Of a stretch of DNA of 64,000 bases, positions 3,101-60,434 are shown in pieces (the stretch's first letter is position 1; the number at the start of each line of letters is the position of its first letter). A program made the translations under genes and the position numbers. The notes beneath the pieces were generated by a model that saw nothing but the letters and a program-made list of their open reading frames with translations, had not been told where the DNA came from and did no database searches. Source of the stretch: Candidatus Eiseniibacteriota bacterium (GTDB taxonomy: Bacteria > Eisenbacteria > RBG-16-71-46 > CAIMUX01 > WJJG01); NCBI GenBank assembly GCA_023129715.1, contig JAGMBO010000057.1:1-64000 (forward strand), read 5' to 3'.

Positions 3101-3195
3101 CGGCCGGGGCCCGCCGCCGGTGTGCCCGCCTTTCCCGCGGGAAGGCGGAGTATCGTCGGCGGGCGTGGGGTCCGGCGGCAGGAGGCGGAGGCGCA

Positions 3196-3951: not shown

Positions 3952-3979
3952 TCCCCGCCCCGCCGGTCGCGTGCGGTGC

Positions 3980-4009
3980 TTGAGTAGGACGAAGGCTTCC
4001 GGCTACGAT
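3980..4009 (+). promoter_or_regulatory. sigma70-like promoter for ruvCAB
   Basis: TTGAGT (3980-3985) and TACGAT (4004-4009) are separated by 18 bp, giving a leader of about 50 nt before the ruvC ATG. No LexA-like palindrome was noticed. Confidence 0.5.
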
Positions 4010-4067
4010 GGGGGCGGGTCTCGCGGGACCCGGCCCCGTTCTTGTCTCCGGGGCGCAGGAGGATGGC

Positions 4068-5194: not shown

Positions 5195-5281
5195 CCCGCC
5201 GTAGCTCGACCTGTGGCGCGGCCCGCGAGGACCCGACCGGACAGGGTCGTCGTGACCGGCGCGCCGGGGCGGGTGGCGGCG

Positions 5282-5311
5282 TTGCCGAGTCTTGCGCCGG
5301 CGTGCTAGGCT
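5282..5311 (+). promoter_or_regulatory. candidate internal promoter before ruvB
   Basis: TTGCCG (5282-5287) and TAGGCT (5306-5311) are separated by 18 bp in the 148-bp gap between ruvA and ruvB, so ruvB may be expressed partly independently of ruvCA. Confidence 0.4.
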
Positions 5312-5342
5312 GCGGAATCAGCATCAGGGAGGAGTGCGCGCG

Positions 5343-35750: not shown

Positions 35751-36164
35751 AAATGGTAACCGCAACATACAAGTAGGGATTGTGAGCGAAACAAGGATGT
35801 TTCTGACGGAGAGTAGAGAGGGCGGCCGGCGAGAGACTCGCTCAAGGCCGGGCGCATCCTGCCGACCCTTTTTCAGAAGCACTTTCGGGGCTGGCGATCC
35901 CGCCATCTCCCTTTCCTGCCTTTCGCTGTCACCAGGTGGTAATGATCTCGTTCTCCACGGCTCACGGCCGGGGAGTGTTTCGCGCTGGACCGCGGGGACG
36001 AGGTTGGTTGGTCGGGCATGGTTGACCCGCCAATAGTGGGGAGTTTCCTAAGGAGGACGGCGGTGCTGATCACGAAGCAGTTGATCGGAAGCCCTACGAG
36101 GGTTCAATCGGCTCACCAAGGATTCCTTCGCGGTTCGCGGTCTCATGTGAAGGAGGGACAAGGC

Positions 36165-39100
36165 ATGAACTGGACAGGAAAGTCTTCTGTCTTCTTCGTC
36201 ACGGTTTTCGCTTTGGCAATTGCCGGGCTGTTCGCTGCGCCGGCGCAGGCCGAGGTGTTGGCCAGTGCGGCGGGGGATGAGGCAGCGTTCTTCTATTCCT
36301 CCTTCCCGATCGAGGGTGGCCCGCACATCATCGCGGCGACGTTCTGGGACGCCGAGTCAAACGATACGACGTATACCGGCGAGCAGGACTCGCTCTTCGT
36401 CGTCTTCAACGAGCCGGTCAACGTCGGCACGATCGCCATCGAGGACTTCGTCTTCCATGGCTTCGAGGCGGCGACCCTTGAGCGCATCGACGGCGTGACG
36501 GGGAAAATGGCGGTGCTCACCGACCTCGATTCCGAGATCCTGCCGGCGATCGATTCGGTGGGGGTCGTCTGGAGCTCCTTCCTCGGGACCGACGGCAGCG
36601 ACAACAAGGACGTCGGCATGGTGCCGGTGACCGAGGGGCCGGTGATCGTCGACATCACGTACCACGGCAATTGGGACGCCTCGAATGTCCACGATCCCAT
36701 CTTCGATCCCGACTCGATCACGGTGATCTTCGACCACCCGGTCACGATCGCCGATGCGACCGGCCTCTTCACCGGGACGCCCGAGTTCATCAATGACATC
36801 GACAACACCGCCTCGGGGCGCCTGATCGGGATCGCGCCCGCAGCCGCGGCCGACACGATGCTGCAGATCTATACGGGGATCTCGAAGCTCTGGCTCGCCG
36901 CCGGGGATGTCGAGTGGACCGCCGATGACGACCTGCAGAATGCGATGGCGCAGAAGGTCGCCTTCAACAACGACGGTCCCGTCCTGATGGCCGCCTACTA
37001 CAATGACGGGGGGACGGGCGCCACCGGCACGCAGGACGACGACGAGATCTGGCTGGTTTTCGACCAGCCGGTCCCGGCCGGGAGTCTCCAGGACGTCGAC
37101 GACCAGTATTCGATTTCCTGGCAGTCGGTCACGTACGTTTTCAGTCTGCTGGCCGAGCAGCGGCGCCAGCCGCAGGGGAACTTCTACTCCAACGTCATCG
37201 TGATCACCAATCCGGTGACCGCGGACGGTGATCCAGCGATTGACGCAGAGATGTATGTGGTGCCCGACTATGCCCACATCGACTACCAGGGCGTCGAGGG
37301 CCCGATGCGCATGTCGCGCTGCAAGGCGGGTGTCGGAATCAGCCGCGCGGCCTACTTCGACCGCGGCACCGACGACGCCGACAACGATCAGCTCCATCTC
37401 TGGTTCAGCCAGGAGCTCGCTCTGGCCGATGTCACGGCGCTCGACTTCGAGCTGGTTCCCGACGTACCCGACTTCTGGAGTGAGATCACCTTCCAGGTCG
37501 ACAACACCAACGGCTTCGGCCACGTGGTGGTGAGCGGGATCAACAACTCGACCGCGCTCGGCGGCGCCCGCCTCCCAAATGGCTACTACGTCAAGATTGC
37601 CACCGACACGAGCATCGAGGGCCTCGTCACCACGACGGACGGCTGCGACGGTGAATCGCTGATTCCGATCATGGACGACAGCGAGCCCGCGCGCGTGCGC
37701 CTCGCCGAGGTGCCCAGCCTGACGTACAAGCGCTACAACAGCGTGACCGACGCCGACACCGCCTTCATCGCCTGGCGCGAGACGGGGCTGGTCGACGACT
37801 CGGATCAGTACTTCGTCTTCTTCACCAATCAGCCGGGCACCGATCTCGATGATCTCTTCATCGATAACTACCGCCAGAGCGCGTTGGTGGCGTCGAACCT
37901 GACGCCGGTGACGGTCAACGGCAGTGTCATGAGCTGTGCGGTCGACATCGAGCAGGGCAACCCGACGACCGACGGACACGCGATCGTCCACGGCGACGAG
38001 CTGTACTTCATGCTCGTCCCGGCGACCTTCTGGGGTAACATGGCCGACGGGGATGAGGATGCGGTGCTGAAATTCACCACCCCGATCATTGCCGGCCCGG
38101 TTTGCCCGCCGCGCGACTTCGACGAGAACGACGACGACATCATCCATGTGACCGGGGTCTTTGCCCCGGCCGACACGAGCTGGACGCGCTCGATGTTTGG
38201 TGATGCCAACGCCTTGCCCTGCGGTACGCATGTCTTCATCTTCGACGGCGACGATCCCTTGGGCAGCAGCATCGAGCTGGGGACCGGTCCGGTCAATCCG
38301 AACGGCTCGTTCGACCCGGTCGTGCTCGGCGACCCGACGGTCGATCCCGACACCCTGCAGGCGTTCTTCGTCTTCGCCTGGCAGGAGGGGGCCTTCAGCG
38401 ACTCGTTCGCCGTGATCCTGAACGACATCGCCCTGCCGTCGATCGTCGACGGTTCGGTGATGGACCTGTTCAACCCCTACCAGATCTACAAGGGTGATGA
38501 TTACGTCAACATCATCATGCAGGCCGACGACGCCACCGGCGACCCGGCCTCGCCGACAACGGCCCTTAGTGACCTGCTCGAGGTCTGGGCCGACATGACC
38601 TTCATCGACAACCGCACGGCGTTGCCGACGTCGCTGGGGAGCTTCGAGCTCGACTCGATTCCGATGTGGTCGATGGGTTCCGACGAGATCGACAACGACG
38701 GCGACTGGGTCGCCCACGACCCCCTCATCGACCTTGATGACGACGGCGTGATGGACTTCCCCGAGCCCTTCTTCGATGAGAACGGCAACGGCTACTACAA
38801 TGCCGGGGAGACCTTCGTCGACCGGGATGGCGACGATCTCTGCGATGCGCCCCGCGACCCGCTCGAGACGCCTCCCGCAGGCAGCACCGACTACGACTTG
38901 AACCTCGACTCGGCGGACGAGGATGAGCACGGCTGGTACGAGATCCGCCTGCTCGCCTCGGGCGACGAAGACCTGTACAACGACGTCGTCAGGGGCTTCC
39001 AGGTCCTCGATACGGTCACCGACTCGACGGGCACGAGCAACTTCGGCGAGATCGATGATCTGCCGGCGCCCTTCGGCCTGCGCGACGTCTATATCGATGC

Positions 39101-42100
39101 GACCACCGAGCTCGACGAGCACACCACACCCTTCATCTGCGAGCTCGACGAGGTCGCCCCGACGGTCGCCAAGATCACCGAGTTCTACACCGCCGCCGCG
39201 TTCCTGACCGCGGCCGACCCGGCCGACAACGTGATCCTCCCGACCAATCCGGTCTATCACATGGGCCGCTACCTCGACGTGCTGATGGAGACCCACAGCG
39301 ACAACGACGTGCTCTTCTCGGTCGCCCAGATCAAGGAGAGCTCGAAGGCGACGTGGGAGCATCTCACGCTCGATCCGGCCGGCTGGAACGCCGATGCCGA
39401 CACCCCGGGTGTCGCCGGCTTCGACGACGACCGCGATGTCGCCTTGATGGGCTACGACACCGACGGCATCGACAACGACGACGACGGCGAGATCGACGAG
39501 CCCGGCGAGGGGATCGACTTCCAGGATCCGGAGGTCGTCGACGCCAGCCAGGACTCGACCGCCGACGCGAATGCGGTCAATCCCGACTTGATCTACCGGA
39601 CGACCGACCGGATCGACAATGACAACGACGCCTTCTACGTCTTCGAGCCCTATTGGGACGTGGGCGGGGGTGCGGTCTATCACCGCATCATCTGGTTCAA
39701 CATCGACGAGACGCGCAGCAACGACATCGACGACGACTTCGACGGCGTTCCCGACGACAACGGCGGCGGCGCCCTGGGCACGCCCGAGGACGAGACCTAC
39801 AGCGCGATCTCGGACGACAACGAGGACGGAATCGTCGATGCCGAGGCGATCGAGCTGATCGCCGACGGCGGGACCACGCAGCGCTTCTTCTGTGTCGCCG
39901 ACAGCGCCTACAGCGGTCCCTTCTACGTGGCCGCGCCCTATGTCCTCGGGGATGCCCCCGATGGGATGCCGAGTGACGTGATCAACGACATCCGCGGTCT
40001 GACCGACTTCCGCGGCCCGAGCTACGGCATCCTCGATGCAAATGGCGGGGCGATGATCGACCCGCCGGCCTTCCCCTGGGGTGACAGCACCACCGCGGCG
40101 GAGTTCAACTGGTACCTGCTGCACGGGGACGAGAACATCGACTTCTGGCACCTGGCGCAGATCATGTTCGGCACGGTTCCCGACGGCAGCGAGGAGTACG
40201 ACCTGCGCATCGCCGCCTATGACCAGGCGGGCAACGTGCAGTACTCCTACGCCGCTCCGATCACGTTCACCTCGGACGTGACCGACCCCGTCGTCCAGCT
40301 AGAGCAGTGTGCCGATGGCGACACGACGATCTGCGAGGACGCCCACCTCGACCTGACGACGACCGACGATGACGATGCGGTCAAGATCTTCTTCGAGGCG
40401 CGTTTCTCGACCGACGAAGGCACGACCTGGAGCGACTGGGGCGCCGACTGGGCGCATCAGGATGAGTCGCGGCCCTACACGGCGGCCTTCGACTCGCTCT
40501 TCGTGATCAGCAACGACCCGCCCGACGACTACGTGCTGGCGCAGTTCCGGGCCTACGGCGAGGATGAGTTCGGCAACGTCCAGGATCCCGACTCGACCTG
40601 TGTCTTCGAGGCGCGGATTGAGGACTGCCGCCCGCCGGTGACCTGGTTCACGCTGATCCACGAGACGATGAATACGCATCCCGCCGGTGATCACATGAAC
40701 ATCGGCGATACGGCCAATCCGTACTACTACCGCGACGTGATCGGCCCGCTGCAGGTCCCGGTCGGTGAGACGATCGATGTCTGGGCGCTCTTCGCCCCGG
40801 ACACGGGCATGGTGGCGACCTACGATCACGATGTCATCCGGGTGGTCCTCGAGTACCGGCCCGCCGGAGCCGGCGATTGGACGATGCTCGAGACGATCGA
40901 GGGTGATGTGATCGTCGACGAGGTCACCGGCGATACGCTCTCCGTCGACCTGACCCTGCCGGTCGCGGTGACGCTGAACACCGCTGCGCTCGAGACGGGC
41001 TCCTACGACCTGCGGGTCTGGGCCTGCGACATCGAGGGCAACTGCAATACGACGACCTATGATATCGCGATGATCACGGTGGTCGACGAGGGTCTGCGGG
41101 CCTACATCGAGCCCCCCTATCGTGAGAACCCGACCGATCCCTTCGAGCTCTACGCGCTCAACTGGATCCACGACTACGACCTCGAGGAGGTCGAGTTCGA
41201 GTTCTACGAGGACTTGAACGGCAATGGTGAGCCCGACGACGCCAAGACCGAGTGGGTCCACATCGCCACCGACATCGGCAGCGCCACCGACTTGCCCGGT
41301 TCGCGTGGTGACGTGACGCTCTATCGCGGCGCGGACATGATCTTCGATCTCGAGGAGGGCACGCCTGGCTTCCACGCCTTCCGCGGGTACACGGTCACCG
41401 GCGACAGCGCCGAGGCCTATATCGACTACGACGGGGACGGCTACAGCGAGCGCGACCCGATCATCCTCGATGCCGATGAGGACATGTGGTACACGCCGGG
41501 CAACGACATTGTCTTGCTGGGCGACGGTACCGAGATCCTGGGCGAGGGGCTGCTCGAGCTGACCGCCTTCGAGGACACCGAGTTCCGCACGGGCGACTTC
41601 CCGTTCGATGCGACGCAGTGGATCTTCCGCGAGAACCTCTCGCCGAACACTCCGGCGCAGGGCACCGGCATGCTCAACCTGTGGCATGTGCAGTGGGACG
41701 TGACCGGACTCGAGGGTGACTTCCTGGTGCGGGCCAAGGCGACCGACATCCTCTACAACATCGATGAGGATCGCCCCAACAAGCCGATTCCGTGGGAGAC
41801 GCTCTCGATCGATACCGAGCCGCCGGTAGCGACGATTACCGAGCTGACCTATCCCGACGCTTCCGCCGAGCCGGCGATCGACGGGATCTACATCAACGGT
41901 CAGACCGGCTGGTTCGGGATCCTGGCCGAGTGCTCAGATGCGGACGTCGAGCACGTCCAGATCGAGTTCCGGATTCCGGGGCATGCCGAGCTCGGGGACT
42001 GGACGCCGATGGACGTCAACGACGACAACGACTTCTACGCCGACATCGACGGGATCCCCGGCTTCTCCGACGAGGACGAGATCATCCTCGACGACGGAGA

Positions 42101-45100
42101 CTTCGTCTTCGACGAGAGCAAGGGTGATCTGGTGCTGTATAAGGGCGCCAACGGCGAGATCAACACGCCGGCCGGCACGCCACTGCTGCCGCTCTTCAAC
42201 GTCGATATCCCCGGCGCGCTCCTCTACTTGGTCGAAGAGGATGATAACGGCGACGATGACGACAACGATGGGATGACCGATGAGGACATCGACAATCCCG
42301 AGGATCGCATCGCGCCCTACTTCGTCTACATGCACATTGGTGCGCTGCACCTGATCAGCGACACCAACGTCGAGCTGCGGGCGGTGGCGACCGATCAGTC
42401 GGCCAACGCCGACCCGAACCCGGCTGTGCTGCAGCTGGTGCTCGGCGAGACCAACGCACCCGAGACCGACGTCGTCTGGGTGAAGATGGACGACGAACTC
42501 ATCGACGATGTGTTCCCGTCAATCTCCGACGGCGACGGGGTCTATCAGTTCGTGGGCGGTGACGACGAGATCACGGTGATGACCACGGGCGAGGATGCCA
42601 CGGCGATCGAGAACGTCGACCTGATGTGGCGCCGCGCACCCGAGTGCGTCACCCCGATGCTCTACGAGTGGGACAACCCCTGGCAGAGCATGGCGGACGG
42701 TGGCTACACGACGGCCAACACGAGCTACGACTATCCGTTCGACGTCAACCTGGCGCAGTTCCTGGCCGACAACGGCAGCGGCGTCTATGAGTTCTATGTC
42801 GAGGCGACCGACAACAACGGCAACGCCACGCCGCCCTACGAAAACCCGAACCGCTTCCGCTTGCTGGAGGACGAGGCCACGATCGTCACCGATCTGACCG
42901 ACGTCTGGGTCGAGCCGGCCCACGACGGCCTGCCGGGCAGCGAGCTCTGGTTCGAGGCGGAGGTTGTACCGGCCAACGAGGATGCCACGGTGGCGTTCCT
43001 CTACGCCGAACGCGTACTGGATGTGGAGATCGACCCGACGCGGGTCACGCCGCATCCGGAGCATGCGACCTACATGACGATGGATCTGGTGCCGGGGATC
43101 TTCGGAGATCCCGCGGATCATGCGGTCCTCACGATCGATGACGTCGAGTACACCTTCTACGAGGACGCTGATGCCCTGATCCTCAGCGGTGATGCCACCG
43201 GCTGGACCTACGATGCCGGTGACGATGTCGTCGAGTTCCTGGCGATTCCGGGGACCGAGGCCGAGATTCTGGTCAGCTACAACATCACCGGCTACGACTA
43301 TCTCTGGCAGACGCCGGACGCTGAGTCGACCGACGATGAGCCCGATGTGAGCGACGGCTACTACGCCGCCGCGTGGGATCAGCCCCACGGTGGCGTGCCC
43401 GAGCCGGATTCACCGTACACGGTGGCCTACGACATCATCGCGACCCTCTACGTCGGCGCACCCGGCGATGAGGACTGCGGGCTGATGGGCGAAGACGTTT
43501 CCGAGGGGCAGTATGTGATGCTGCTCGACGAGGAGGCGCCGCATATCACGCTCTTCGCCCAGGGGCTCCGCAACGCCGACCTGGACGCCTTCTGGCCCGG
43601 CAACCCCTCGTTCGATTCCTGGGAAGGCACCGACGAGGAGTGGGGCGGCGAGGAAGGCAGAATCGAGTGGAAGCTTTCGGGCATCGAGCACGAGTTCTTC
43701 GTCGCCGAGGGGCGTAAGGGGAAGGGCGAGGCCGATAGCGACATCCTCAACGTCAACCTCGTCTTCGAGGACGAGGCTGGTGTGGTGACCTCGCTGCCGA
43801 TGGAGGAGATCCCCGCGGACGCCGAGTATGTCGAGATGACCTTCACGCTCTATGAGTCCGACTTCCCCGAAGTGCTGTATGGATTCGAGAACGTGGGGCT
43901 GAACTTCAACGGCCTGATCCACGAGATGACCCCGACCGACGGTGTCTGGCAGGTGTCCAACGTGCCGGTGCCGACGGGGACGGTAACGAGCTACACCTTC
44001 ATGATCGACCAGGACGGCAACGACTGGGACGAGGAGGTGCTCGATCCGCGCAACTGGGAGGCCATGATCGACAAGTTCATGGTCAAGGGATCGATTACCC
44101 AGCCCGGCGCGGACAATGGGGTCTCCTCGATCAGCGTGCCCTTCCCGCCCTTCTGGTTCGTCAGTGGCCCGGACTTCGGGACCGTGACGTCGGTGTGGGA
44201 GGTCTATGCCGAGGCATTCGACGACGTGGGCAACCGCGGTGTCACCGAGATGAACGTCAAATTCGTCTATGACCCGGTTGCGCCGAGCGTCGACGAGGTC
44301 ACGGCCAGCAGCACGCGCTTCGGCGCGGGCGACACGGTGATGGTCTACGCGACGATTACCGACCCGCCGGCGGCCGACTTCGACGTGATCACCGTGGCCG
44401 AGGCCCTCTTCCAGTACTGTCCGAACTACACGGCGGTCAAGGCGGGTGAGGGTGATCCGGTCTGGCTCGAGTTCGGTGCCGCGATCGACACGAATCGTAC
44501 CGACGGTTGGTCGATGCAGGGCACGATTCCCGATCCGGAGATGGATGGCTTCGACAACGACGGTGACGGGACCTGGGATGAGGCCGACGAGTCGACCTCG
44601 ATGATGGCCTTCCGGGTGCTGGCCCTCGACGATGGGCACAACTACAGCGACCCGGCCGATGCCAATGGGATCCGCGAGTTCACGCTCGATGAGACCGAGC
44701 CGGCCGCCGTGCTGACCAGCCCCGGCGAGGGTTTGGTCTATCCCTACGGCTCGACCATCACCCTGACTGCGGAGATCACCGAGTACGAGGAGATCGCCAA
44801 GGGGACCGACATCCACCATGTCCTCTTCCAGTTCGACAAGGGCGACGGTTTCGAGAACGTCGACATCACGCCCGAGGATGGCTCGGACGCCGACTTCGAC
44901 GTGACCGAGCCCTACGAGGTGATGTTCAACACGGCCGACTACCTCGGCGAAGAGGATTCCTACATCCGCTTCCGCGCGGTGGCCGCCGACTATGCGGGCA
45001 ATGAGGATCACGACCCGGCTGAAGTCCTGGTGATCGTCAACGACATCACCGGACCAGAGGCCTATCCGATGTGGGCCAAGACGACCGGTGCCACGAGCTG

Positions 45101-48100
45101 GACGCCGCTGACGGATGCGCACGTGGCGCTCCATGGCCCCGAGGCGATGCTCAAGGGTGTGGTCGTCGATCCGGCCGGCTGGGAGCACATCGCAACGGTC
45201 ACGGTTCAGTACACGGCGCCGGCCAAGGAAGACTGGGTGACCATCGCGGTGATTCCCGCGGGCGATCTGACGCACGACGCCGGTGACCTCGACTTCTACG
45301 CCGAGTGGGAGACCGTGTGGGATACCCATCCGCTGCCGGAGGGGCTCTACACGATTCGGGCGATCGCGGCCGATGTCGACGCCAACGCCGATGAGGCGCC
45401 GTTGACTCAGGAGGTTGCGGTCGACCACACGCCCCCGGCGGTGCTCTACGAGCCGATCGCCGGCTACTACGACGGCTTCGCGCCCTGGGCCTGGTACTAC
45501 AACGACGGTGTCGTCGACCAGCAGTCGATGGTGCTGACGCCCGATCCGGCGACCGGAGATCTCGCCTTCATGGTGATCACTCCGGATGCCGACATTGCGG
45601 GCATCACGCTCGAGTGGCACCAGGACGGGACGCACGCGCTCGGCGAGTGGGCGCCGTTCGCGATGGATATGTTCGACTACGAGCCGAACCTGACCTTCGA
45701 CGCGGCCAAGACGACCTACTACGTCTGGTGGCTGCCGCTGGACAACTTCCGTGACCACTGCGAGCTGGTGGGCATCAGCGGGGTCATGGACATCCGCGGG
45801 CTGGCGACCGACTATGCCGGCAATGCCAATATCCTCTATGACGCCAACAACCTGTGGAAGATCTGGACCGTCGACGTCGACGATCCGACCGCCTTCGACT
45901 TCAACCATGATCTGACCAACCCGGATGAGCCGCAGGTTGAGTCGGGTGAGCCGGTCACCTTCGAGTTCGTGCTGGCCGACACCACGACCGACGTCGTCAC
46001 CGTGCGCCTCGAGTATCGCGAGGCGCCGGAGGTCGGAGTTCCTCCCGATTGGGAGGTGATCGATCCGAATCCGGCGACCGAGGAGATCGAGCCGATCGAG
46101 CTCACGGTTGTGGATCTGGACACGCCCTATGCCATGTGGCACGGCACGGCGACGTGGGAGACGCCCTATCCGCTGGTGCAGGATACTGATTACGACGTGC
46201 GGGTCGTCTTCTATGACAGCGCGCACAACTGGGATACGAGTGAGCTCACGATCACCGTCGAGGACAACATCAAGCCGGTGTACACGAAGATCTGGGCGGT
46301 TCCGGCCGAGGTCACCTGGCTCGACGACTGGTACGCCGGCACCAACGACATGATCTACGGGACCGACTGTGAGAGCGAGATCGAGAAGCAGGGCACCGGT
46401 GGCCACGATGCGTTGTTCATCGACATGGATGACGACGGCGACTACACGCCGGGTGACGTGGCGATCGATTACGGTGCCTTCTACTACGGGGCCAGCTACG
46501 CGCTCAACGGCCAGCCGTTTGTCGATGGCTGGGGCACGATCGGCGATCCGGGCTTCACCTGGCCGCGCTACATCGATGAAATCGTCCTCGGGGGCGAGCT
46601 CGGTGAGCAGGTCATGGTTTCGCACACGGTGACCCTGGTCGCGCGCACGCAGATCGACGACATCGGCCTGGAGCGGGTCGAGTTCTACGCGATCACTCCG
46701 GCCGGAGATACGCTCCTCGTCGACACCGACGAGTGCGTCCCGGCCTATGGAATGGGCAACTACCTGTGGCACGTGATCTGGGACACCAAGGATCTGGATG
46801 ACTATGGCGAGCCGCTCTATCCCGACGGGGTCTACACGATCGTGCCGATCGCCTATGACCTCGAGGGGAACGTCGAGGAGTGGGGCGCCAAGGATATGTC
46901 CGGCCATGCCGTGGTGACGGTGGACAACACCGCCCCGCAGGCGACGCCGGACGCGGATCCCTACACCGAAGGCGTGCAGCCGAGCATCACGGTCGAGCGC
47001 AACTCGTTCATGACGCTGTTCGCCACGACCGACGTGGACGGCATCGCCGACGACGAGGTCACCTTCTACTACAAGCGGGCGACCGATCTGAACCGCCCCG
47101 ACGCGTGGACGATGGTCCAGAACGCCTGGGGCGTCGATGCCAGTGACGTCAATCCAGACAAGACGCGGCCGTACGTCTTCGACTGGGACTTCGACATGAT
47201 GGACGTCCCGTTCCCGCTGGTCGATCCGGTCGTGGGTGTCGACTACCACGTCGCCTGCGACGCGGCTGATCTGCTCGTGAACACCGAAGACAAGACCGAT
47301 GCCTTCGAGGATGACCGCTACATCACCTTCACGGTCGTCGACACGAAGGCGCCGGTGGCGACGATCACCGGAGTGCGTCGTGCCACGGGCGACAACAGGT
47401 TGATCCAGATGCCCCATCTGGACAGCCCCGTCCACGCGCGCGACTTCTGGTACCTGATGGCCGAGATTCTGGAAGGCGACAACGACGTCGAGCGGGTGGA
47501 GTTCATGTGGGCCCTGCCGGGCGAGGCGCCGCAGCTAATCGATGCGGACGTCACCCGGGATCCCGAGAATCTCCACACGTGGCGGATCTACGACTGGGAT
47601 CTGCGGGCGTTGGCCGGACAGACGATCGAGGTCTTCGCGGTGGCGACCGACGACGTCGGCCACACGGACTTCGATAGCGAGACCGGACGGCCGATTCAGG
47701 GACCGATCTTCACGGTCTTCGTCGACTTCGACGCGCCGACGATTACGATGGTCACGCCGTGGGACGACATGAAGGAGTGTCGGTCCAATTGGGAGACCGA
47801 CGACGACATCTATGAGCTGATCTTCACCTCCACGGCAACCGACATCGACGAAGAGTCGGTTGTCTGGGAGTGGAAATTCTCGGGTGACCCGGATCTCGAG
47901 GAGAACTGGACAGTCTGCTACGACTCCGGCAATGCCGTCTTCGACGCCAGCACCGGAACGTTCGCGGATGTCTGGGACATCGACGACGACTGTCTCGAGA
48001 GCAACTTCTACGATGTCCGGCTGACCCTGTATGACGATGCCGGGAACATGTACCAGGCGATCGTGGCCGTGCGGATCGTGATCGATGTCGATGACCCCTG

Positions 48101-51100
48101 GGGCGAGGTCACCCGCGTGGTGGTCAACGAGGTCGACTACTTCCCGACGCAGGTCATCGAGATCACCCTGGGTGATGTGATCACCCTCTGGGCGACCGCC
48201 GATGACATCGAGGAGGGATTGCCCGGTTTCGGCACGGGTGTGGAGGAGATCCTCTTCCAGGCCCAGTACGCCACCGGCAAGAGTACTTCCGGCGAGTGGC
48301 GGGATGTGGGCCTGTGGCAGGCACCGGACGACACCATCTACGAGCACGTCGTCACCAGCGTCGACTGGAACACGAGCGGGCTCTCCGAGGGGTACTACCA
48401 CGCGCGCATCGTCATCCACGACGAGGAGTGCAACGAGTACACTAGTGCCGCGGTCGATCTGCAGATCCTCGATCGGCAGCCGCCGCGGGCGCGGATCGCC
48501 GGCTGGGATCCCTGCGAGCTGCCTCACGGGGACGATCCCCCGGTCTACTGCGACGTCTATGCGATCGCCTACTGTGACGATGCGATGGATGAGGTGCAGT
48601 TCCAGTACAGTGAGGATGCCGGCGAGACCTGGGTGCCCTTCGGGCTTTCCGATGACGACGCGAACAACATGCCGACGGAGCTCTGCGACATCTGGAGCTC
48701 CCGGCTCGAGCTGGGCAGCTTCGAGGTCGGCGACGAGTTGCTGCTGCGAGCGATCGCCAGGGACTGCGACATGAATCAGGATCCGAACCCGCCGGTGGCG
48801 GCGGTGAAGGTCTATGAGCACCCGGACGGCTCGCTCGACCTGGTCCCGATCGAGAACGAGGCCTGTGACGAGATCTCCGAGCCGACCCTGAGCGTGGTCG
48901 GCGGTGAGTGTCCGACGCAGATGATCGTGACCGTTCAGACCAACGACGCGAGTGTGAAGCCGCATGTGCTCTACGTCCACCCGGACACCTGGGACTGGAA
49001 CTACGACCCGATCGGCTACTGCAGCAATGCTAGCTGCATCTACATGGAGAGGATGATCGACGATCCGACGATCTGGCGAGGTGTGCTCGATCTGCCGGTG
49101 GAGGACTGCGGCAAGATCACCGTCTTCGCCAATGCTCTCGGTGAGTGCGAGCAGATCGACATCCACAGCACCTATGTCTGGTCGCGCTACATCACCAACG
49201 CCTTGGGGACGAACGGCGTCCACTGGGTGCCGGGGTACGTGGCGGCCGACACATCGTTCTACTATCTGAATGCGTCGGCCTACGTCCCGAGCGGCAGTGG
49301 TGTCGAGGCGTGCCTCTTGCTGGCGCCGGGCACCGACGCGCCCACGTTGAGCGCTGACCAGGCGCGGTTCATGACGATGCTGGAACGCACGAACTACTAC
49401 ATGAACCCGATCGCCGGCGATAACGACATCGACTTCAACGACGGCTACTACCTGAGCGCGACCATCGACTATGACGACGCGGCGCTGATCGAGGCCGCGG
49501 GTAGTGAAGAGCGCGCTGCGGCGATCGAGCCCTACCTGACCGTGCGTCTCTACGACACGGCGCATGAGGACTTCGGCCACTGGGAGGGCACCGACATCAC
49601 GCACATCACCGTCGATGCCCAGGCCAACCGGGTCAGCTTCATGACCAACGAGCTGGAGTGCGCGGATGCCTTCTATGCACTCTTCGCACCGACCTGGGAT
49701 GCTCCGGTGGCGGTGCTGAGTTTCACGCCGGATAGCCCCTATCCGGGCCGGTGGAACTACACCGATCGGGACCCGATCATCATCGCCGACCTCAACACGA
49801 CCGGTATCGAGGAGATCGACTCCACGACGGTGGAGATCTGGATCGGCAAGGATGGTGAGCAGCAGCAGCTGGTCGCCGCCTGGATGCCGGACGGTGGCGA
49901 TCCCGACAATGATCCTGACCACTGGGCACGGGGCGACGGCGAGTTGGTGATCCGCCAGAAGAACCTCGACGGCACGATGTTCGAGGTGACCTACTACCAC
50001 ACGACGCAGCAGCCCTGGTGGCTGGAGCACGGGTGGCACACGCTGAACATCATGTACAAGACGGATGACGGAGTGGACGAGTGGGTCGAGCTGCCGGCGG
50101 GTGCGCCGGGCGCGCGGTTCTTCGTCGACGCCGATCCGCCGATCGTCGAGTTCCATGGCGGCTGGACGGATAATCCGGTTCTGCACAACGTTTCGGGCTA
50201 CCTGAATCCGGCGCAGATGGAGAACATGCTGACCGTTTACTTCTACGATGACGACGCCGGCCTGCTGGTGCGCCCGACCGACATCGAGTGCGACGACTGC
50301 GAGGAGTGCGATTGCAACCTGCGCGGCATCAAGTACGACCTCTGGTTGGTCCACGACGAGGACGACCAGGTCGAGATCGATGAGATCGAAGAGCGGCTGC
50401 TGCTGCACAGCGGCACCGCCGACGAGCTCATCCCCTACATGATCCCGCCGTATCACACGCCGAGCGAGGTCGACACGCTCGAGGGCAACTACTACACGCC
50501 CGATGACACGCTGATCGCCGGCCTGCCGATCATGGCGGGTGGGGTGACCCACGACATCGGCGACGGGGATGTCATCGAGGTGGTCATCTACAGCAAGAAG
50601 CGGATCGAGCAGTATGGGGACTACACGGAGGGCTGCGAGGGCGGCTTGATCATCGTACCTAACACGGACGGCGTTCAGGACACCCTCGGTACCTTCTGGC
50701 TCGACTGCTACGTGGACCACAACTCGCGCATGCACATCTACGAGCAGGGTGTGCTCGACTGGGCGGGCAACGCGGGCTCCGAGTACGTGGAGCAGCGCTT
50801 CATCGTCGACATGACGGCGCCCACCGTCGAGCTGATCTCGCCGGCCGGGGGCTTCACCGAGCCGAGTGAGAGCTTCTGCTTCGAGGCCCAGCTCGTCGAC
50901 GCCGGCTCGGGCGGCGCGACCGCCGAGGTGGTGATGATGGGTCCTGATGGTGCGGAGATCGAGATCACCGATTTCGAGATTGCCGGTGACATCATCAGTG
51001 GTTGTGTTGAGGGTGGTCTCGACATGGGCCGCTACTCCCTCGTGGTGACGGCTGCGGACATGACCGGCAACACCGCCGTCGTGTCGGTGCCGATCATCGT

Positions 51101-51422
51101 GGAGAGTAGGACGCTGGCTATGAGCGAGACCTACATCTATCCGAACCCGGTCAACCCGGATGACTACGAGGCGATCATCCACTTCAACCTGAGCCGCCAT
51201 GCCGAGATCACGGCGAAGGTCTACGACTTCGCGGGTGAGTACGTGACGACGATTGCCAGCCACGAGCCCTATGCCGCCGGCGTGTGGAGCGACCTGCGGT
51301 GGGCCGGGCAGGCGTCGGATGGAACGGAGCTCGCCAACGGGGCGTACCTGATCCGGCTCGAGGCGTTCGACGGCTCGGCGCGCAAGGCGGCGACGATCAA
51401 GGCGGTCATCTGGAGAGAGTAG
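36165..51422 (+). CDS. giant exported multi-Ig-domain surface protein with FlgD-type C-terminal domain
   Basis: The ATG at 36165 follows AGGAGGG and opens with a clear signal peptide (cleavage likely after AAPAQA, residue 29), giving 5,085 residues. An in-frame start at 36018 would destroy the signal peptide. Five N-terminal repeats start near residues 51, 158, 271, 391 and 520, four of them about 107-120 apart, with patterns such as DSLFVVFNEPV and DEIWLVFDQPV, like SbsA/Big_5 Ig modules. Asp-rich calcium-type loops occur near 840-900 and 1098-1190 (DNDGD, DDDGVMD). About 19 further modules carry an AxDxxGN-like signature (RAVAADYAGNED, FAVATDDVGHTD) and linkers of the type DTxxPVATI. The last 100 residues (from about 4986, YIYPNPVNP to LANGAYLIRLEA) form a FlgD Ig-like domain of the kind found at C-termini of exported FCB proteins. 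No enzyme domain is recognised. A role as adhesin, stalk or surface-layer component is inference. Confidence 0.9.
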   Translation: MNWTGKSSVFFVTVFALAIAGLFAAPAQAEVLASAAGDEAAFFYSSFPIEGGPHIIAATFWDAESNDTTYTGEQDSLFVVFNEPVNVGTIAIEDFVFHGFEAATLERIDGVTGKMAVLTDLDSEILPAIDSVGVVWSSFLGTDGSDNKDVGMVPVTEGPVIVDITYHGNWDASNVHDPIFDPDSITVIFDHPVTIADATGLFTGTPEFINDIDNTASGRLIGIAPAAAADTMLQIYTGISKLWLAAGDVEWTADDDLQNAMAQKVAFNNDGPVLMAAYYNDGGTGATGTQDDDEIWLVFDQPVPAGSLQDVDDQYSISWQSVTYVFSLLAEQRRQPQGNFYSNVIVITNPVTADGDPAIDAEMYVVPDYAHIDYQGVEGPMRMSRCKAGVGISRAAYFDRGTDDADNDQLHLWFSQELALADVTALDFELVPDVPDFWSEITFQVDNTNGFGHVVVSGINNSTALGGARLPNGYYVKIATDTSIEGLVTTTDGCDGESLIPIMDDSEPARVRLAEVPSLTYKRYNSVTDADTAFIAWRETGLVDDSDQYFVFFTNQPGTDLDDLFIDNYRQSALVASNLTPVTVNGSVMSCAVDIEQGNPTTDGHAIVHGDELYFMLVPATFWGNMADGDEDAVLKFTTPIIAGPVCPPRDFDENDDDIIHVTGVFAPADTSWTRSMFGDANALPCGTHVFIFDGDDPLGSSIELGTGPVNPNGSFDPVVLGDPTVDPDTLQAFFVFAWQEGAFSDSFAVILNDIALPSIVDGSVMDLFNPYQIYKGDDYVNIIMQADDATGDPASPTTALSDLLEVWADMTFIDNRTALPTSLGSFELDSIPMWSMGSDEIDNDGDWVAHDPLIDLDDDGVMDFPEPFFDENGNGYYNAGETFVDRDGDDLCDAPRDPLETPPAGSTDYDLNLDSADEDEHGWYEIRLLASGDEDLYNDVVRGFQVLDTVTDSTGTSNFGEIDDLPAPFGLRDVYIDATTELDEHTTPFICELDEVAPTVAKITEFYTAAAFLTAADPADNVILPTNPVYHMGRYLDVLMETHSDNDVLFSVAQIKESSKATWEHLTLDPAGWNADADTPGVAGFDDDRDVALMGYDTDGIDNDDDGEIDEPGEGIDFQDPEVVDASQDSTADANAVNPDLIYRTTDRIDNDNDAFYVFEPYWDVGGGAVYHRIIWFNIDETRSNDIDDDFDGVPDDNGGGALGTPEDETYSAISDDNEDGIVDAEAIELIADGGTTQRFFCVADSAYSGPFYVAAPYVLGDAPDGMPSDVINDIRGLTDFRGPSYGILDANGGAMIDPPAFPWGDSTTAAEFNWYLLHGDENIDFWHLAQIMFGTVPDGSEEYDLRIAAYDQAGNVQYSYAAPITFTSDVTDPVVQLEQCADGDTTICEDAHLDLTTTDDDDAVKIFFEARFSTDEGTTWSDWGADWAHQDESRPYTAAFDSLFVISNDPPDDYVLAQFRAYGEDEFGNVQDPDSTCVFEARIEDCRPPVTWFTLIHETMNTHPAGDHMNIGDTANPYYYRDVIGPLQVPVGETIDVWALFAPDTGMVATYDHDVIRVVLEYRPAGAGDWTMLETIEGDVIVDEVTGDTLSVDLTLPVAVTLNTAALETGSYDLRVWACDIEGNCNTTTYDIAMITVVDEGLRAYIEPPYRENPTDPFELYALNWIHDYDLEEVEFEFYEDLNGNGEPDDAKTEWVHIATDIGSATDLPGSRGDVTLYRGADMIFDLEEGTPGFHAFRGYTVTGDSAEAYIDYDGDGYSERDPIILDADEDMWYTPGNDIVLLGDGTEILGEGLLELTAFEDTEFRTGDFPFDATQWIFRENLSPNTPAQGTGMLNLWHVQWDVTGLEGDFLVRAKATDILYNIDEDRPNKPIPWETLSIDTEPPVATITELTYPDASAEPAIDGIYINGQTGWFGILAECSDADVEHVQIEFRIPGHAELGDWTPMDVNDDNDFYADIDGIPGFSDEDEIILDDGDFVFDESKGDLVLYKGANGEINTPAGTPLLPLFNVDIPGALLYLVEEDDNGDDDDNDGMTDEDIDNPEDRIAPYFVYMHIGALHLISDTNVELRAVATDQSANADPNPAVLQLVLGETNAPETDVVWVKMDDELIDDVFPSISDGDGVYQFVGGDDEITVMTTGEDATAIENVDLMWRRAPECVTPMLYEWDNPWQSMADGGYTTANTSYDYPFDVNLAQFLADNGSGVYEFYVEATDNNGNATPPYENPNRFRLLEDEATIVTDLTDVWVEPAHDGLPGSELWFEAEVVPANEDATVAFLYAERVLDVEIDPTRVTPHPEHATYMTMDLVPGIFGDPADHAVLTIDDVEYTFYEDADALILSGDATGWTYDAGDDVVEFLAIPGTEAEILVSYNITGYDYLWQTPDAESTDDEPDVSDGYYAAAWDQPHGGVPEPDSPYTVAYDIIATLYVGAPGDEDCGLMGEDVSEGQYVMLLDEEAPHITLFAQGLRNADLDAFWPGNPSFDSWEGTDEEWGGEEGRIEWKLSGIEHEFFVAEGRKGKGEADSDILNVNLVFEDEAGVVTSLPMEEIPADAEYVEMTFTLYESDFPEVLYGFENVGLNFNGLIHEMTPTDGVWQVSNVPVPTGTVTSYTFMIDQDGNDWDEEVLDPRNWEAMIDKFMVKGSITQPGADNGVSSISVPFPPFWFVSGPDFGTVTSVWEVYAEAFDDVGNRGVTEMNVKFVYDPVAPSVDEVTASSTRFGAGDTVMVYATITDPPAADFDVITVAEALFQYCPNYTAVKAGEGDPVWLEFGAAIDTNRTDGWSMQGTIPDPEMDGFDNDGDGTWDEADESTSMMAFRVLALDDGHNYSDPADANGIREFTLDETEPAAVLTSPGEGLVYPYGSTITLTAEITEYEEIAKGTDIHHVLFQFDKGDGFENVDITPEDGSDADFDVTEPYEVMFNTADYLGEEDSYIRFRAVAADYAGNEDHDPAEVLVIVNDITGPEAYPMWAKTTGATSWTPLTDAHVALHGPEAMLKGVVVDPAGWEHIATVTVQYTAPAKEDWVTIAVIPAGDLTHDAGDLDFYAEWETVWDTHPLPEGLYTIRAIAADVDANADEAPLTQEVAVDHTPPAVLYEPIAGYYDGFAPWAWYYNDGVVDQQSMVLTPDPATGDLAFMVITPDADIAGITLEWHQDGTHALGEWAPFAMDMFDYEPNLTFDAAKTTYYVWWLPLDNFRDHCELVGISGVMDIRGLATDYAGNANILYDANNLWKIWTVDVDDPTAFDFNHDLTNPDEPQVESGEPVTFEFVLADTTTDVVTVRLEYREAPEVGVPPDWEVIDPNPATEEIEPIELTVVDLDTPYAMWHGTATWETPYPLVQDTDYDVRVVFYDSAHNWDTSELTITVEDNIKPVYTKIWAVPAEVTWLDDWYAGTNDMIYGTDCESEIEKQGTGGHDALFIDMDDDGDYTPGDVAIDYGAFYYGASYALNGQPFVDGWGTIGDPGFTWPRYIDEIVLGGELGEQVMVSHTVTLVARTQIDDIGLERVEFYAITPAGDTLLVDTDECVPAYGMGNYLWHVIWDTKDLDDYGEPLYPDGVYTIVPIAYDLEGNVEEWGAKDMSGHAVVTVDNTAPQATPDADPYTEGVQPSITVERNSFMTLFATTDVDGIADDEVTFYYKRATDLNRPDAWTMVQNAWGVDASDVNPDKTRPYVFDWDFDMMDVPFPLVDPVVGVDYHVACDAADLLVNTEDKTDAFEDDRYITFTVVDTKAPVATITGVRRATGDNRLIQMPHLDSPVHARDFWYLMAEILEGDNDVERVEFMWALPGEAPQLIDADVTRDPENLHTWRIYDWDLRALAGQTIEVFAVATDDVGHTDFDSETGRPIQGPIFTVFVDFDAPTITMVTPWDDMKECRSNWETDDDIYELIFTSTATDIDEESVVWEWKFSGDPDLEENWTVCYDSGNAVFDASTGTFADVWDIDDDCLESNFYDVRLTLYDDAGNMYQAIVAVRIVIDVDDPWGEVTRVVVNEVDYFPTQVIEITLGDVITLWATADDIEEGLPGFGTGVEEILFQAQYATGKSTSGEWRDVGLWQAPDDTIYEHVVTSVDWNTSGLSEGYYHARIVIHDEECNEYTSAAVDLQILDRQPPRARIAGWDPCELPHGDDPPVYCDVYAIAYCDDAMDEVQFQYSEDAGETWVPFGLSDDDANNMPTELCDIWSSRLELGSFEVGDELLLRAIARDCDMNQDPNPPVAAVKVYEHPDGSLDLVPIENEACDEISEPTLSVVGGECPTQMIVTVQTNDASVKPHVLYVHPDTWDWNYDPIGYCSNASCIYMERMIDDPTIWRGVLDLPVEDCGKITVFANALGECEQIDIHSTYVWSRYITNALGTNGVHWVPGYVAADTSFYYLNASAYVPSGSGVEACLLLAPGTDAPTLSADQARFMTMLERTNYYMNPIAGDNDIDFNDGYYLSATIDYDDAALIEAAGSEERAAAIEPYLTVRLYDTAHEDFGHWEGTDITHITVDAQANRVSFMTNELECADAFYALFAPTWDAPVAVLSFTPDSPYPGRWNYTDRDPIIIADLNTTGIEEIDSTTVEIWIGKDGEQQQLVAAWMPDGGDPDNDPDHWARGDGELVIRQKNLDGTMFEVTYYHTTQQPWWLEHGWHTLNIMYKTDDGVDEWVELPAGAPGARFFVDADPPIVEFHGGWTDNPVLHNVSGYLNPAQMENMLTVYFYDDDAGLLVRPTDIECDDCEECDCNLRGIKYDLWLVHDEDDQVEIDEIEERLLLHSGTADELIPYMIPPYHTPSEVDTLEGNYYTPDDTLIAGLPIMAGGVTHDIGDGDVIEVVIYSKKRIEQYGDYTEGCEGGLIIVPNTDGVQDTLGTFWLDCYVDHNSRMHIYEQGVLDWAGNAGSEYVEQRFIVDMTAPTVELISPAGGFTEPSESFCFEAQLVDAGSGGATAEVVMMGPDGAEIEITDFEIAGDIISGCVEGGLDMGRYSLVVTAADMTGNTAVVSVPIIVESRTLAMSETYIYPNPVNPDDYEAIIHFNLSRHAEITAKVYDFAGEYVTTIASHEPYAAGVWSDLRWAGQASDGTELANGAYLIRLEAFDGSARKAATIKAVIWRE

Positions 51423-51430
51423 CCATTGAC

Positions 51431-51462
51431 GGCGGGGCCCGCCCGCAAGGACGGGTCCCGCT
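51431..51462 (+). other. GC-rich hairpin between the giant gene and the PorV/OmpA gene
   Basis: GCGGGGCCCG (51432-51441) pairs with CGGGTCCCGC (51452-51461) with one G-U pair and a 10-nt loop. It starts 9 nt after the giant gene's stop. The following sequence (TGATTGAAG) is not a T-run, so it may act as a partial terminator or a 3'-end stabiliser. Confidence 0.6.
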
Positions 51463-51535
51463 GATTGAAGTCTCGTCTGAAGAGACGGCCGGTTCGTGGT
51501 ACAGACCATTCGGGTTCACAGAAGGAGGTACGACG

Positions 51536-53164
51536 ATGTTGAGAAGGAGTAGGGGGGTCATGACATGGGCTCTGCTCCTCGTCCTGGGGCTCTTCCTGGT
51601 CCCGCCCGGGGTCGCATTTGCCGGTGCTGACAACGAAGACTCCAGCAATCATGCGATTCCCTTCATGCGGATGGGTGTCGGCACCCGCGCACTGGGGATG
51701 GGAGGGGCCTACGTCGCCGCGGGCAGCGATGCGACCGTCGGCTACTGGAACCCGGGTGCCCTGGGCTGGTCCTGTGGAACGCAGGTCTCGGCCATGTATG
51801 CGCTCGGCATGTCCGACGACCGCAACATGAGCTACCTGGGTGCGTCCCATCACACGGGGTGGGGAGCGCTTGGGCTAAGCCTGCTGACGGCGGGGATGAA
51901 GGACATCGAGCAGCGAGATACCCAGGGAGCGTTTCTTGGGGATTTCGACTATTCGGATCTTGCGGTCATGCTGCATGGCGCCTATGCCATGGACTACGTC
52001 ACCTTCGGCGCGACGATCAAGTACCTGCATCAGGGTCTTGACGCGGACGTTGCCGGCGATGACGGCGTCGACGGCTATGGCTTCGACTTCGGAATCGGGA
52101 TCCAGCCGCTCGAGTGGGTGCGCTTCGGTGTGGCCCTGCGCGATGTGGCGACCGAGATCGGCGGGGACGAGGATGCCAACGTCGCGCCGATGAACCTGCG
52201 GGGCGGTTTTGCGCTGATGCCGCTCCAGGGCTTCACGTTCGCGCTCGACTTTGATCATGTCGAGGACGAGGACGACCTGAAGTTCCATGCGGGCACCGAG
52301 TACGCCTTCCCGATGGGCGAGGACTTCGGTGGTGCGCTGCGCCTCGGGTTGAACGACGGAGCCCTGACCGCGGGCGTTGGCGTGGCGGTGAGGTTCGTTG
52401 AGTTCAACTATGCGTTCATCGAGGAGCCGCAGGACTTCATGGACGAGAGCCATCGGGTCGGCGTGACCCTGCGCTTCGGTGAGGACTGCGAGGGCTTCGA
52501 CTACGAGCCGCGCATGAAGGACAGCGACCTCGACGGCATCCCCGACAAGATGGACGCCTGTCCGCACGCGGCCGAAGACTTCGACGGCTTCGAGGATCAG
52601 GACGGTTGTCCCGACGTCGACAACGACGGCGACGGGATACCCGACGTCGACGACGATTGTCCCGGCCGGGCGGAGGATTTCGACGGCTTCCAGGACATGG
52701 ACGGCTGCCCCGACATTGACAACGATGGCGACGGCATCCTGGACAGGGACGACAAGTGCCCGAACGCGGCCGAGACGTTCAACCGTTTCGAGGACACCGA
52801 TGGTTGCCCGGACGAGGCGCCGATCGAGTTCCCGATGTTGAACATCAACTTCAAGTTCAACAGCGCCGAATTCATGGGCACCGACCCGATCCCTGCGCTG
52901 GAGCGGATCGCCGAGGTTCTTAGAGAGAGCCCCGATGTGCGCGTGCGCATCGAGGGGCACACCGACAGCGTCGGCGGCGAGGAGTACAACACGGGTCTGT
53001 CGCTGCGGCGTGCGGAGGCCGTGAGGGACTACCTGGTCGAGAAGGGCATCGGCGCCGAGCGTCTGATGGCCGAGGGTTTGGGTGAGGGACACCCGGTTGC
53101 GAGCAACGACAGCGAGCAGGGTCGCTATCGCAACCGGCGGATCGAGTTCAAGGTCCTCGACTAG
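51536..53164 (+). CDS. outer-membrane protein: PorV-like barrel, TSP3 repeats and OmpA domain
   Basis: The 542-residue protein has a signal peptide (cleavage likely after GVAFA, residue 29). A PorV/UPF0164-like barrel follows (about 40-320), opening with MGVGTRALGMGGAYVAAGSD and YWNPGAL. Three thrombospondin type-3 calcium repeats come next (about 325-427; DSDLDGIPDKMDACP, DNDGDGIPDVDDDCP, DNDGDGILDRDDKCP). The OmpA-like peptidoglycan-binding domain (about 435-540) contains GHTDSVGGEEYN and LSLRRAEAV. The ATG at 51536 has the very strong RBS GAAGGAGGT. It lies 113 nt after the giant gene and is probably co-expressed. It should sit in the outer membrane, tethered to the cell wall; an anchoring or export role for the giant protein is inference. 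Confidence 0.92.
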   Translation: MLRRSRGVMTWALLLVLGLFLVPPGVAFAGADNEDSSNHAIPFMRMGVGTRALGMGGAYVAAGSDATVGYWNPGALGWSCGTQVSAMYALGMSDDRNMSYLGASHHTGWGALGLSLLTAGMKDIEQRDTQGAFLGDFDYSDLAVMLHGAYAMDYVTFGATIKYLHQGLDADVAGDDGVDGYGFDFGIGIQPLEWVRFGVALRDVATEIGGDEDANVAPMNLRGGFALMPLQGFTFALDFDHVEDEDDLKFHAGTEYAFPMGEDFGGALRLGLNDGALTAGVGVAVRFVEFNYAFIEEPQDFMDESHRVGVTLRFGEDCEGFDYEPRMKDSDLDGIPDKMDACPHAAEDFDGFEDQDGCPDVDNDGDGIPDVDDDCPGRAEDFDGFQDMDGCPDIDNDGDGILDRDDKCPNAAETFNRFEDTDGCPDEAPIEFPMLNINFKFNSAEFMGTDPIPALERIAEVLRESPDVRVRIEGHTDSVGGEEYNTGLSLRRAEAVRDYLVEKGIGAERLMAEGLGEGHPVASNDSEQGRYRNRRIEFKVLD

Positions 53165-53256
53165 GGACTTACGAGTAGGGCTGGCCGGTCCCGGGAAGGG
53201 GGCCGCGGGCGCTATGGGTCAAGATTCCAGGTCGTACCTCCTGGAAGAGCGACTGA

Positions 53257-53293
53257 CGGGGTGTGTGGCGTTGTCCACACACCCCGCTTTTTC
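53257..53293 (+). terminator. strong intrinsic terminator after the surface-protein pair
   Basis: A perfect 12-bp stem (CGGGGTGTGTGG at 53257-53268 with CCACACACCCCG at 53275-53286) has a 6-nt loop and is followed by CTTTTTCG. It closes the giant-protein/PorV-OmpA unit. Confidence 0.93.
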
Positions 53294-59243: not shown

Positions 59244-60434
59244 ATGGACCCCGAGACCGCCGCGGCGGCTCCGGGAACTGAAGAGGGAAGACCATTGGGT
59301 GGGGCGGCATACCATTTCGCCGTGGTCAGCTACCGTGATATCCGCCATCCCGAATTCGGCGGTGCCGAGGTGATCATCTACGAGATCTTTCGCCGCCTCG
59401 TCAGGTGGGGCCACAAGGTGACCTTCCTCGTCGGCCATTGGCCCGGTGCGCCGCGCGAGGAGGAGATCGAGGGTATGCGCATCCTGCGCGCCGGCTGCCA
59501 GTACACGTTCAACTTCCGGGCCCCGGGGATGCTCCGCCGGCTGCTCGCCCGCGAGCAGGTCGATCTGGTCGTCGAGGACATCAACAAGATCCCCTTCTTC
59601 ACCCCGCGCTTCCAGCGGCGGGCACCGGTGCTCGGAGTCGTGCCCCATCTCTTCGGCACGACCGTCTTCCAGCAAGCCTCCTTTCCCTTGGCGCTGTATG
59701 TTTACCTCTACGAGCGGTTCATCCCCAGCGTCTACCGCCGGTGCCGCTTCTCGGTGCTCTCGCAGACGACCCTCGAAGACTTAGTCGCCCGCGGCCTTCC
59801 GCGCGAGGCGCTACGGCTGATCCGCGCCGGCATCGACCACGACTACTACCGCCCGCTGGCGCGCCGGGGCGTTGCTCCCGGGCCGGTCGTGCTCTACCTG
59901 GGGCGGATCAAGAAGTACAAGCGTATCGACCTGGTCATTCAGGCGCTGCCGGCGATCCTGCGCGAGGTGCCGGAGGCCGAGTACTGGATTGTCGGCGAGG
60001 GGGACTACCGCCCGGCGCTCGAGGCGCTCGTGGCCCGGATGGGACTCGAGAACCATGTGCGCTTTCTCGGGTTTCAATCGGGAGCGGAGAAGCTCGCAAC
60101 GCTCTCGCGGACCCGGGTGCTTGCCTATACCTCGCCCAAAGAGGGGTGGGGACTCTCGGTGATCGAGGCCAACGCGCTCGGCATCCCGGCGGTGGCGAGC
60201 GATGCGCCGGGGTTGCGCGAGTCGGTGCGCAACGGTGAGACCGGTTACCTCGTGCCCCACGGAGACGTCCCGGCGCTCGCCGGGGCGCTGCGGCGCCTGC
60301 TCACCGACGACGACCTTTGGTGGCAGCTGGGACGCGCGGGGATGAGCTGGGCCACCGAGTTCAACTGGGAGCGCTCGGCCAAGGAGACGTTCCAACTCGC
60401 GGAAGAGATCATCACGGATTGGAAGGGGGCCTGA
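59244..60434 (+). CDS. GT4-family glycosyltransferase
   Basis: The 396-residue GT-B enzyme has the N-terminal acceptor domain (HPEFGGAEVIIYEI) and the C-terminal donor domain (VLYLGRIKKYKRIDLVIQAL, FLGFQSGAEKL, and the Ex7E motif in SPKEGWGLSVIEANALG). It transfers a nucleotide-activated sugar with retention. Donor and acceptor cannot be told. It overlaps the DUF2723 gene by one base. Confidence 0.92.
   Translation: MDPETAAAAPGTEEGRPLGGAAYHFAVVSYRDIRHPEFGGAEVIIYEIFRRLVRWGHKVTFLVGHWPGAPREEEIEGMRILRAGCQYTFNFRAPGMLRRLLAREQVDLVVEDINKIPFFTPRFQRRAPVLGVVPHLFGTTVFQQASFPLALYVYLYERFIPSVYRRCRFSVLSQTTLEDLVARGLPREALRLIRAGIDHDYYRPLARRGVAPGPVVLYLGRIKKYKRIDLVIQALPAILREVPEAEYWIVGEGDYRPALEALVARMGLENHVRFLGFQSGAEKLATLSRTRVLAYTSPKEGWGLSVIEANALGIPAVASDAPGLRESVRNGETGYLVPHGDVPALAGALRRLLTDDDLWWQLGRAGMSWATEFNWERSAKETFQLAEEIITDWKGA

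Follow-up and report, generated by a model that had tools for sequence, protein, structure and literature searches.

The window analysed here, a stretch of 64,000 nucleotides from a Candidatus Eiseniibacteriota bacterium (contig JAGMBO010000057.1), encodes a giant surface protein of 5,085 residues (36165..51422, + strand, stop codon counted in the coordinates) and, directly behind it on the same strand, a 542-residue outer-membrane protein (51536..53164) in which a PorV-family barrel, TSP3-type repeats and an OmpA domain are joined in one chain. This pair probably serves type 9 display: a PorV-type shuttle dedicated to one giant cargo would export it and then stay with it as its wall anchor. 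A dedicated display or anchoring unit had already been proposed by the first-pass annotation, an earlier reading of the same DNA, and in our analysis this appears to be the best reading, with PorE-PorP-PG1035 and SprF-SprB as precedents (PMC9143113, PMC12618676). The annotation had named three findings that would speak against its proposal, namely a pairing that is not conserved in relatives, a barrel unlike PorV and a genome without an outer-membrane export route for FlgD-type C-terminal domains (CTDs), and none of these came true.

Domains of the two proteins

The giant gene lies in an open frame of 36018..51422 (+) and starts with the ATG at 36165, behind a Shine-Dalgarno site, AAGGAGGG (36150..36157), which was, like the signal peptide of about 29 residues (MNWTGKSSVFFVTVFALAIAGLFAAPAQA; 36165..36251), identified by reading the sequence. 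Hydrophobic N-termini are present in orthologues of the giant, too. An iterated profile search recognised 15 immunoglobulin (Ig)-like units within residues ~1385-4202 (40317..48770), each with E < 1e-3, and Pfam Big_3_3 matched with E 2.4e-7; the complete orthologues from the same order and from a genome of another family (G012) contain 15-16 Ig-like units apiece by iterated profile. As a BLAST search of the giant against its own sequence yielded no self-match and the iterated profile was needed to find the 15 units, these repeats are very divergent, which corrects the first-pass description of an Ig-repeat protein while leaving the presence of the Ig-like units standing. The overall composition is acidic (20% D/E vs 4% K/R), with ten motifs of the DxDxDG type.

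At its end the giant has a FlgD/PorU-like CTD (residues ~4983-5085; 51111..51419) with the pattern PNPxNP ... LANGAYxxR ... KxVxWRE. The FlgD-type end of an exported protein, as first described, was thus recovered by FlgD_ig (PF13860; E 4.7e-6, 26.9 bits, just under the cut-off of 27), and the C-terminal domain of PorU (NF033707) gave a better match still (E 2e-12). A family profile of the CTDs of the giants led to the uncleaved CTD of PorU (PDB 6za2, E 6.8e-8). The window's giant is not among the matches of the type A sorting model TIGR04183 at E <= 1, and no type B CTD models are among the model matches listed for it.

The fusion protein consists of a signal peptide, a PorV/PorQ-family barrel (residues 39-314; 51650..52477), TSP3-type calcium-binding repeats (residues ~328-428; 52517..52819) and an OmpA peptidoglycan-binding domain (52850..53137). 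Its barrel scores 101-104 bits (103.9) against the curated PorV/PorQ family model NF033709 (cut-off 90), covering profile positions 2-326 of 326. When a profile of ten orthologous barrels was compared with all PDB chains, it matched PorV in its complex with SprA (E 7.9e-17; 6h3i and related entries), and apart from this only a nuclease at chance level (E 0.83). The canonical-type PorV of the same genome was matched with 97.7% probability over 207 columns in a profile comparison. Judged by these models, the barrel is PorV-like, as the first-pass annotation had it; the additional likeness to UPF0164 is only weak, this match reaching 12.9 bits (cut-off 21.4). Against the PorV equivalog model NF033710 (cut-off 250) the fusion barrel scored 28.6 bits and the barrel adjoining PorU 96 bits. 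As NF033709 was passed and NF033710 was missed, the fusion barrel is, by these profile criteria, a PorV-family paralogue and not PorV itself.

The TSP3 and OmpA parts were also confirmed, the latter with 79.8 bits against PF00691 (cut-off 27.2, E 1.9e-22). In PorE, diaminopimelate is held by the side chains of Asp576, Asn584 and Arg591 (PMC7192894). In the fusion, the equivalent residues are D477, N485 and R492, with identical spacing; in an alignment of ten fusion orthologues D477 and N485 are invariant and R492 is nearly so, a truncated orthologue ending before it. Based on this triad, the OmpA domain is predicted to be able to bind the cell wall. The TSP3 repeats are reduced or missing in two orthologues (G002 and G009), and the TSP3 linker is therefore taken as a variable spacer.

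The TSP3/OmpA half raises the idea of a contact or exchange system like TraA/TraB of Myxococcus, in which the OmpA protein would take the part of TraB and the giant that of a recognition receptor. Indeed, when the OmpA protein is searched whole, a TraB model is its top NCBIfam match (E 4.8e-39), and traA-traB is also bicistronic, encoding a surface protein and an OmpA protein (PMC3325183). However, the best TraB match falls in the TSP3/OmpA part, and a search with only the barrel loses TraB and puts the PorV family first, the barrel being unrelated to TraB by profile. The giant also lacks the features of TraA, as PA14, Cys-repeat and MYXO-CTERM were all without a match in the Pfam/NCBIfam domain search. 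Such a system is hence most improbable. TraB itself (NF033763) was rejected as an identity for the fusion, which reached 133.7 bits against a cut-off of 700, with the best stretch in TSP3/OmpA.

Conservation of the gene pair

The conserved neighbourhood that the first-pass annotation proposed to look for was found. The giant and barrel genes are adjacent in each of the ten genomes whose assembly covers the junction, the window's included; these are the window, G002, G004, G005, G006, G007, G008 and G009 of the same order, G012 of another family and G028 of a further family. In two further genomes of the order only the OmpA tail is present at a contig end, and in one the barrel lies at a contig end. 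Among the 47 genomes sampled from the phylum, all of one class, full-length fusions occur in this order and in G012 only, so the fusion appears to be clade-restricted within the one sampled phylum. No plasmid carrying the fusion was found. In the scan of named genomes the search patterns fell in OmpA, so that only TSP3/OmpA relatives were returned.

Orthologues of the giant are collinear and span 5,001-6,310 residues in five other genomes, besides partial ones. Identity is 44% to the giant of G004 and ~30-33% to those of more distant members of the order, with the highest conservation in the last 600 residues and the lowest at the N-terminus. This gradient is as would be expected if the C-terminal end were a base near the membrane and the N-terminus an exposed tip. 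Orthologues of the barrel are single-copy and clearly set apart from other family members (330-511 bits vs <= 156 for the next paralogues).

In the window, G004, G006, G007, G009 and G012 the pair lies after tRNA-Lys and a purA-like gene, the identity of the latter having been tested with Pfam in the window only. The pair of G028, on the other hand, is found at another locus, where it adjoins an electron-transfer-flavoprotein-like gene and nothing else is conserved. There, the barrel is accompanied by an Ig-like protein of 2,939 residues, and the CTD of this protein scores 26.4 bits with the type A sorting model TIGR04183, above the cut-off of 23. As this pair lacks OmpA and stands in a different context, the pairing is independent of both the OmpA fusion and the locus.

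Export route and proposed function

The source genome is a 4.83-Mb draft in 186 contigs with a completeness of 96%. It encodes SprA/Sov (a frame of 2,296 residues; TIGR04189, 492 bits summed over the frame, cut-off 200) and PorU (NF033707, 484 bits, cut-off 420), and on contig C133 PorU directly adjoins a canonical-type PorV and an M6-like cargo. By these model scores, the outer-membrane export route that the first-pass annotation had asked about, a type 9 route, exists in this genome. PorV-family loci number 11, six of them above the cut-off. FlgD_ig gave 150 scored matches, the best of which (242 residues) resembles FlgD itself by its length, and at least 149 CTD-like domains exist beyond that of the giant. 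No match to the PorP/SprF model was obtained in the genome, the control being equally empty.

In type 9 secretion, the loops of PorV take up the CTD inside SprA (PMC10994853). Type B cargoes have one dedicated carrier each and remain bound to it (PMC12635249). In Porphyromonas gingivalis, PorE links the carrier PorP to peptidoglycan (PMC9143113), while in Flavobacterium johnsoniae a PorE-like neighbour is found with static pairs but is lacking from mobile ones (PMC12618676). As the pair in the window has all parts of a static type 9 arrangement, with carrier and anchor in one chain and a barrel of PorV type where PorP would stand, the barrel is read as a dedicated, non-recycling carrier. The signal peptide would bring the giant into the periplasm, where its CTD would be recognised at the SprA/Sov translocon. 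The giant's own PorV-family barrel, in place of the general PorV, would dock there, take up this CTD with its extracellular loops and, provided that the two bind each other specifically, depart with the cargo. Through the calcium-binding TSP3 linker the OmpA domain would then bind peptidoglycan. Carrier and cargo may thereby form a stationary wall-anchored complex that displays a long acidic Ig-like fibre, the CTD presumably being retained on a carrier that does not recycle. The identities of the domains, the conservation of pairing and ligand residues and the presence of export genes are observed, whereas we infer the docking at SprA, the binding of the barrel to this particular giant, the retention of the CTD, the anchoring and the fibre form.

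One of the closest known systems is PorE-PorP-PG1035 of P. gingivalis (PMC9143113, PMC7192894). Its carrier, an outer-membrane barrel, binds a CTD cargo at the cell surface and is linked to peptidoglycan by an OmpA-type domain, as is predicted here. There, however, the PorP-family barrel and PorE are separate proteins, whereas the PorV-family barrel and the OmpA domain of the window are one chain. Furthermore, PorE is a lipoprotein with TPR and propeller domains, unlike the fusion, and PG1035 has a type B CTD, whereas that of the giant is FlgD/PorU-like. By analogy, the fusion would combine the roles of PorP and PorE in a single polypeptide. The PorV shuttle of the SprA/Sov translocon shares with the window the barrel family, as seen in the profile match to 6h3i, and a type A-like CTD cargo. 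Yet PorV is a general carrier without OmpA, whereas the barrel of the window is joined to a wall anchor and neighbours a single cargo. Apart from the fusion barrel, a canonical-type PorV is retained in the genome, beside PorU.

This general route leads to a different explanation, in which the giant, as a type 9 cargo like any other, is exported via the general PorV/PorU and the PorV-OmpA protein is a co-transcribed outer-membrane tether or a FadL-like porin. With the canonical-type PorV beside PorU and so many other CTD-like domains, the general route must indeed serve many cargoes; moreover, PorV belongs to the FadL superfamily, and the G028 barrel shows a faint FadL match. However, the pair was kept in ten genomes, even through the change of context in G028, the barrel falls in the PorV family and not in a transporter family, and the order of cargo and then carrier is the one described for SprB/SprF and Fjoh_3952/3951 (PMC12618676). 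We therefore consider it unlikely that the giant is such an ordinary cargo.

SprB-SprF of F. johnsoniae likewise combines a giant surface protein (SprB, 669 kDa) with a dedicated carrier in the next gene, and a cargo of 5,000-6,300 residues adjoining its own carrier gene could accordingly be taken for a moving gliding adhesin. Nevertheless, SprF, of the PorP/SprF family, has no OmpA domain and SprB is a mobile cargo of type B, whereas in the window the OmpA domain would fix the carrier to peptidoglycan; in F. johnsoniae it is the static pairs, and not the mobile ones, that have a PorE-like partner (PMC9143113, PMC12618676). The GldM model also found no match in the genome, although the control genomes were equally without one. 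A gliding function thus seems very unlikely, and the stationary display unit is favoured over it.

Several observations weigh against such a display unit. The PorM/GldM model had no match in the genome, as it also had none in the control genomes. The G028 barrel ends without OmpA, so that wall anchoring is not a feature of every such pair. The general PorV of the genome could carry the giant as well, the barrel being a putative dedicated carrier on the basis of the conserved pairing. In AlphaFold models of the fusion from 19 relatives, OmpA and TSP3 were modelled well and the barrel had a predicted local distance difference test score (pLDDT) of ~30; as no usable barrel was obtained, the claim about its fold rests on profiles. 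Finally, likeness to the uncleaved PorU CTD is common in some degree to other CTDs of the genome. Taking this likeness as proof that the CTD of the giant is retained was considered and rejected, as other CTDs of the genome match NF033707 too.

The anchoring of non-covalently held type 9 cargoes is an open question, and the PorP-PorE wall-anchor model is so far based on pulldowns and gene neighbourhood. With a PorV-type barrel and a peptidoglycan-binding domain naturally fused, beside a giant cargo and throughout an order of uncultured bacteria, this model gains independent support and becomes testable with one protein pair. The fusion also suggests that dedicated carriers are not limited to the PorP/SprF family, and the pair would offer a compact means, of two genes only, to display very large surface proteins. 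A broader idea, to which we would give slightly less than even chances, is that the PorV family has diversified in this phylum to do the job of PorP/SprF, and that the member fused with a wall anchor is a permanent mount for one giant fibre, a type A-like CTD being used in the manner of type B, where each cargo has one carrier and is not released.

Besides the fusion gene, the genome has at least two PorV-family genes that directly adjoin CTD-bearing genes: one adjoins PorU (contig C133) and another a 1,002-residue FlgD_ig protein (contig C126, E 1.4e-3). At three loci of the same genome (L067, L071 and L072) PorV-family genes lie near proteins with FlgD-like or FlgD-resembling tails. These several pairs suggest that the pairing of PorV-family genes with cargoes is a general habit.

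Gene junction, terminator and possible unfused relatives

The gap between the stop codon of the giant and the barrel gene is exactly 113 nt, as originally stated. Soon after this stop codon a hairpin without a U-run is found (51430..51463, +), and a GC-rich hairpin of this kind with at least 11 pairs is present in all ten genomes, its sequence being different in each of them. It starts 7-12 nt past the stop in nine measured cases and was placed by eye in G012. The hairpins were not brought into register by a MAFFT alignment. As their single z-scores vary from -1.1 to -4.5 and hairpins of like kind are frequent in the GC-rich window, the claim is limited to the kept position and pairing. Such a hairpin could possibly be an mRNA-stability or expression-ratio element; a role in shielding the end of the giant mRNA and in setting barrel translation separately is plausible. 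The barrel gene is preceded by a strong Shine-Dalgarno site, AAGGAGG (51522..51528, +), of which AGGAGG stands ahead of the ATG of the barrel in all ten genomes and is invariant in a nine-genome alignment.

The single strong terminator noted after the pair was found again as a hairpin of 12 pairs with a T run (53257..53286, +), which resembles an intrinsic terminator and is the only strong site of this kind past the pair. Farther downstream, the window encodes a TMEM260-like protein O-mannosyltransferase with TPR repeats (60317-62998), which might glycosylate surface proteins.

Fibrobacter records contain a TSP3-OmpA gene and, directly behind it at a distance of a few bases, a gene that encodes TPR repeats and a weakly matching PorV-family domain (E 1e-7). 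Such neighbours are located at L109:3-3925 and L111:9137-12915, at L110 (OmpA match 2319-2876, barrel frame 2908-5148) and at L115 (OmpA frame 3843-5375, barrel frame 5387-6652), and they are perhaps an unfused counterpart of the fusion. In a further Fibrobacteres record (L079:1-4900) the genes of a TSP3-OmpA protein, of a subtilase ending in a type A-like tail and of a PorV2-like protein stand side by side.

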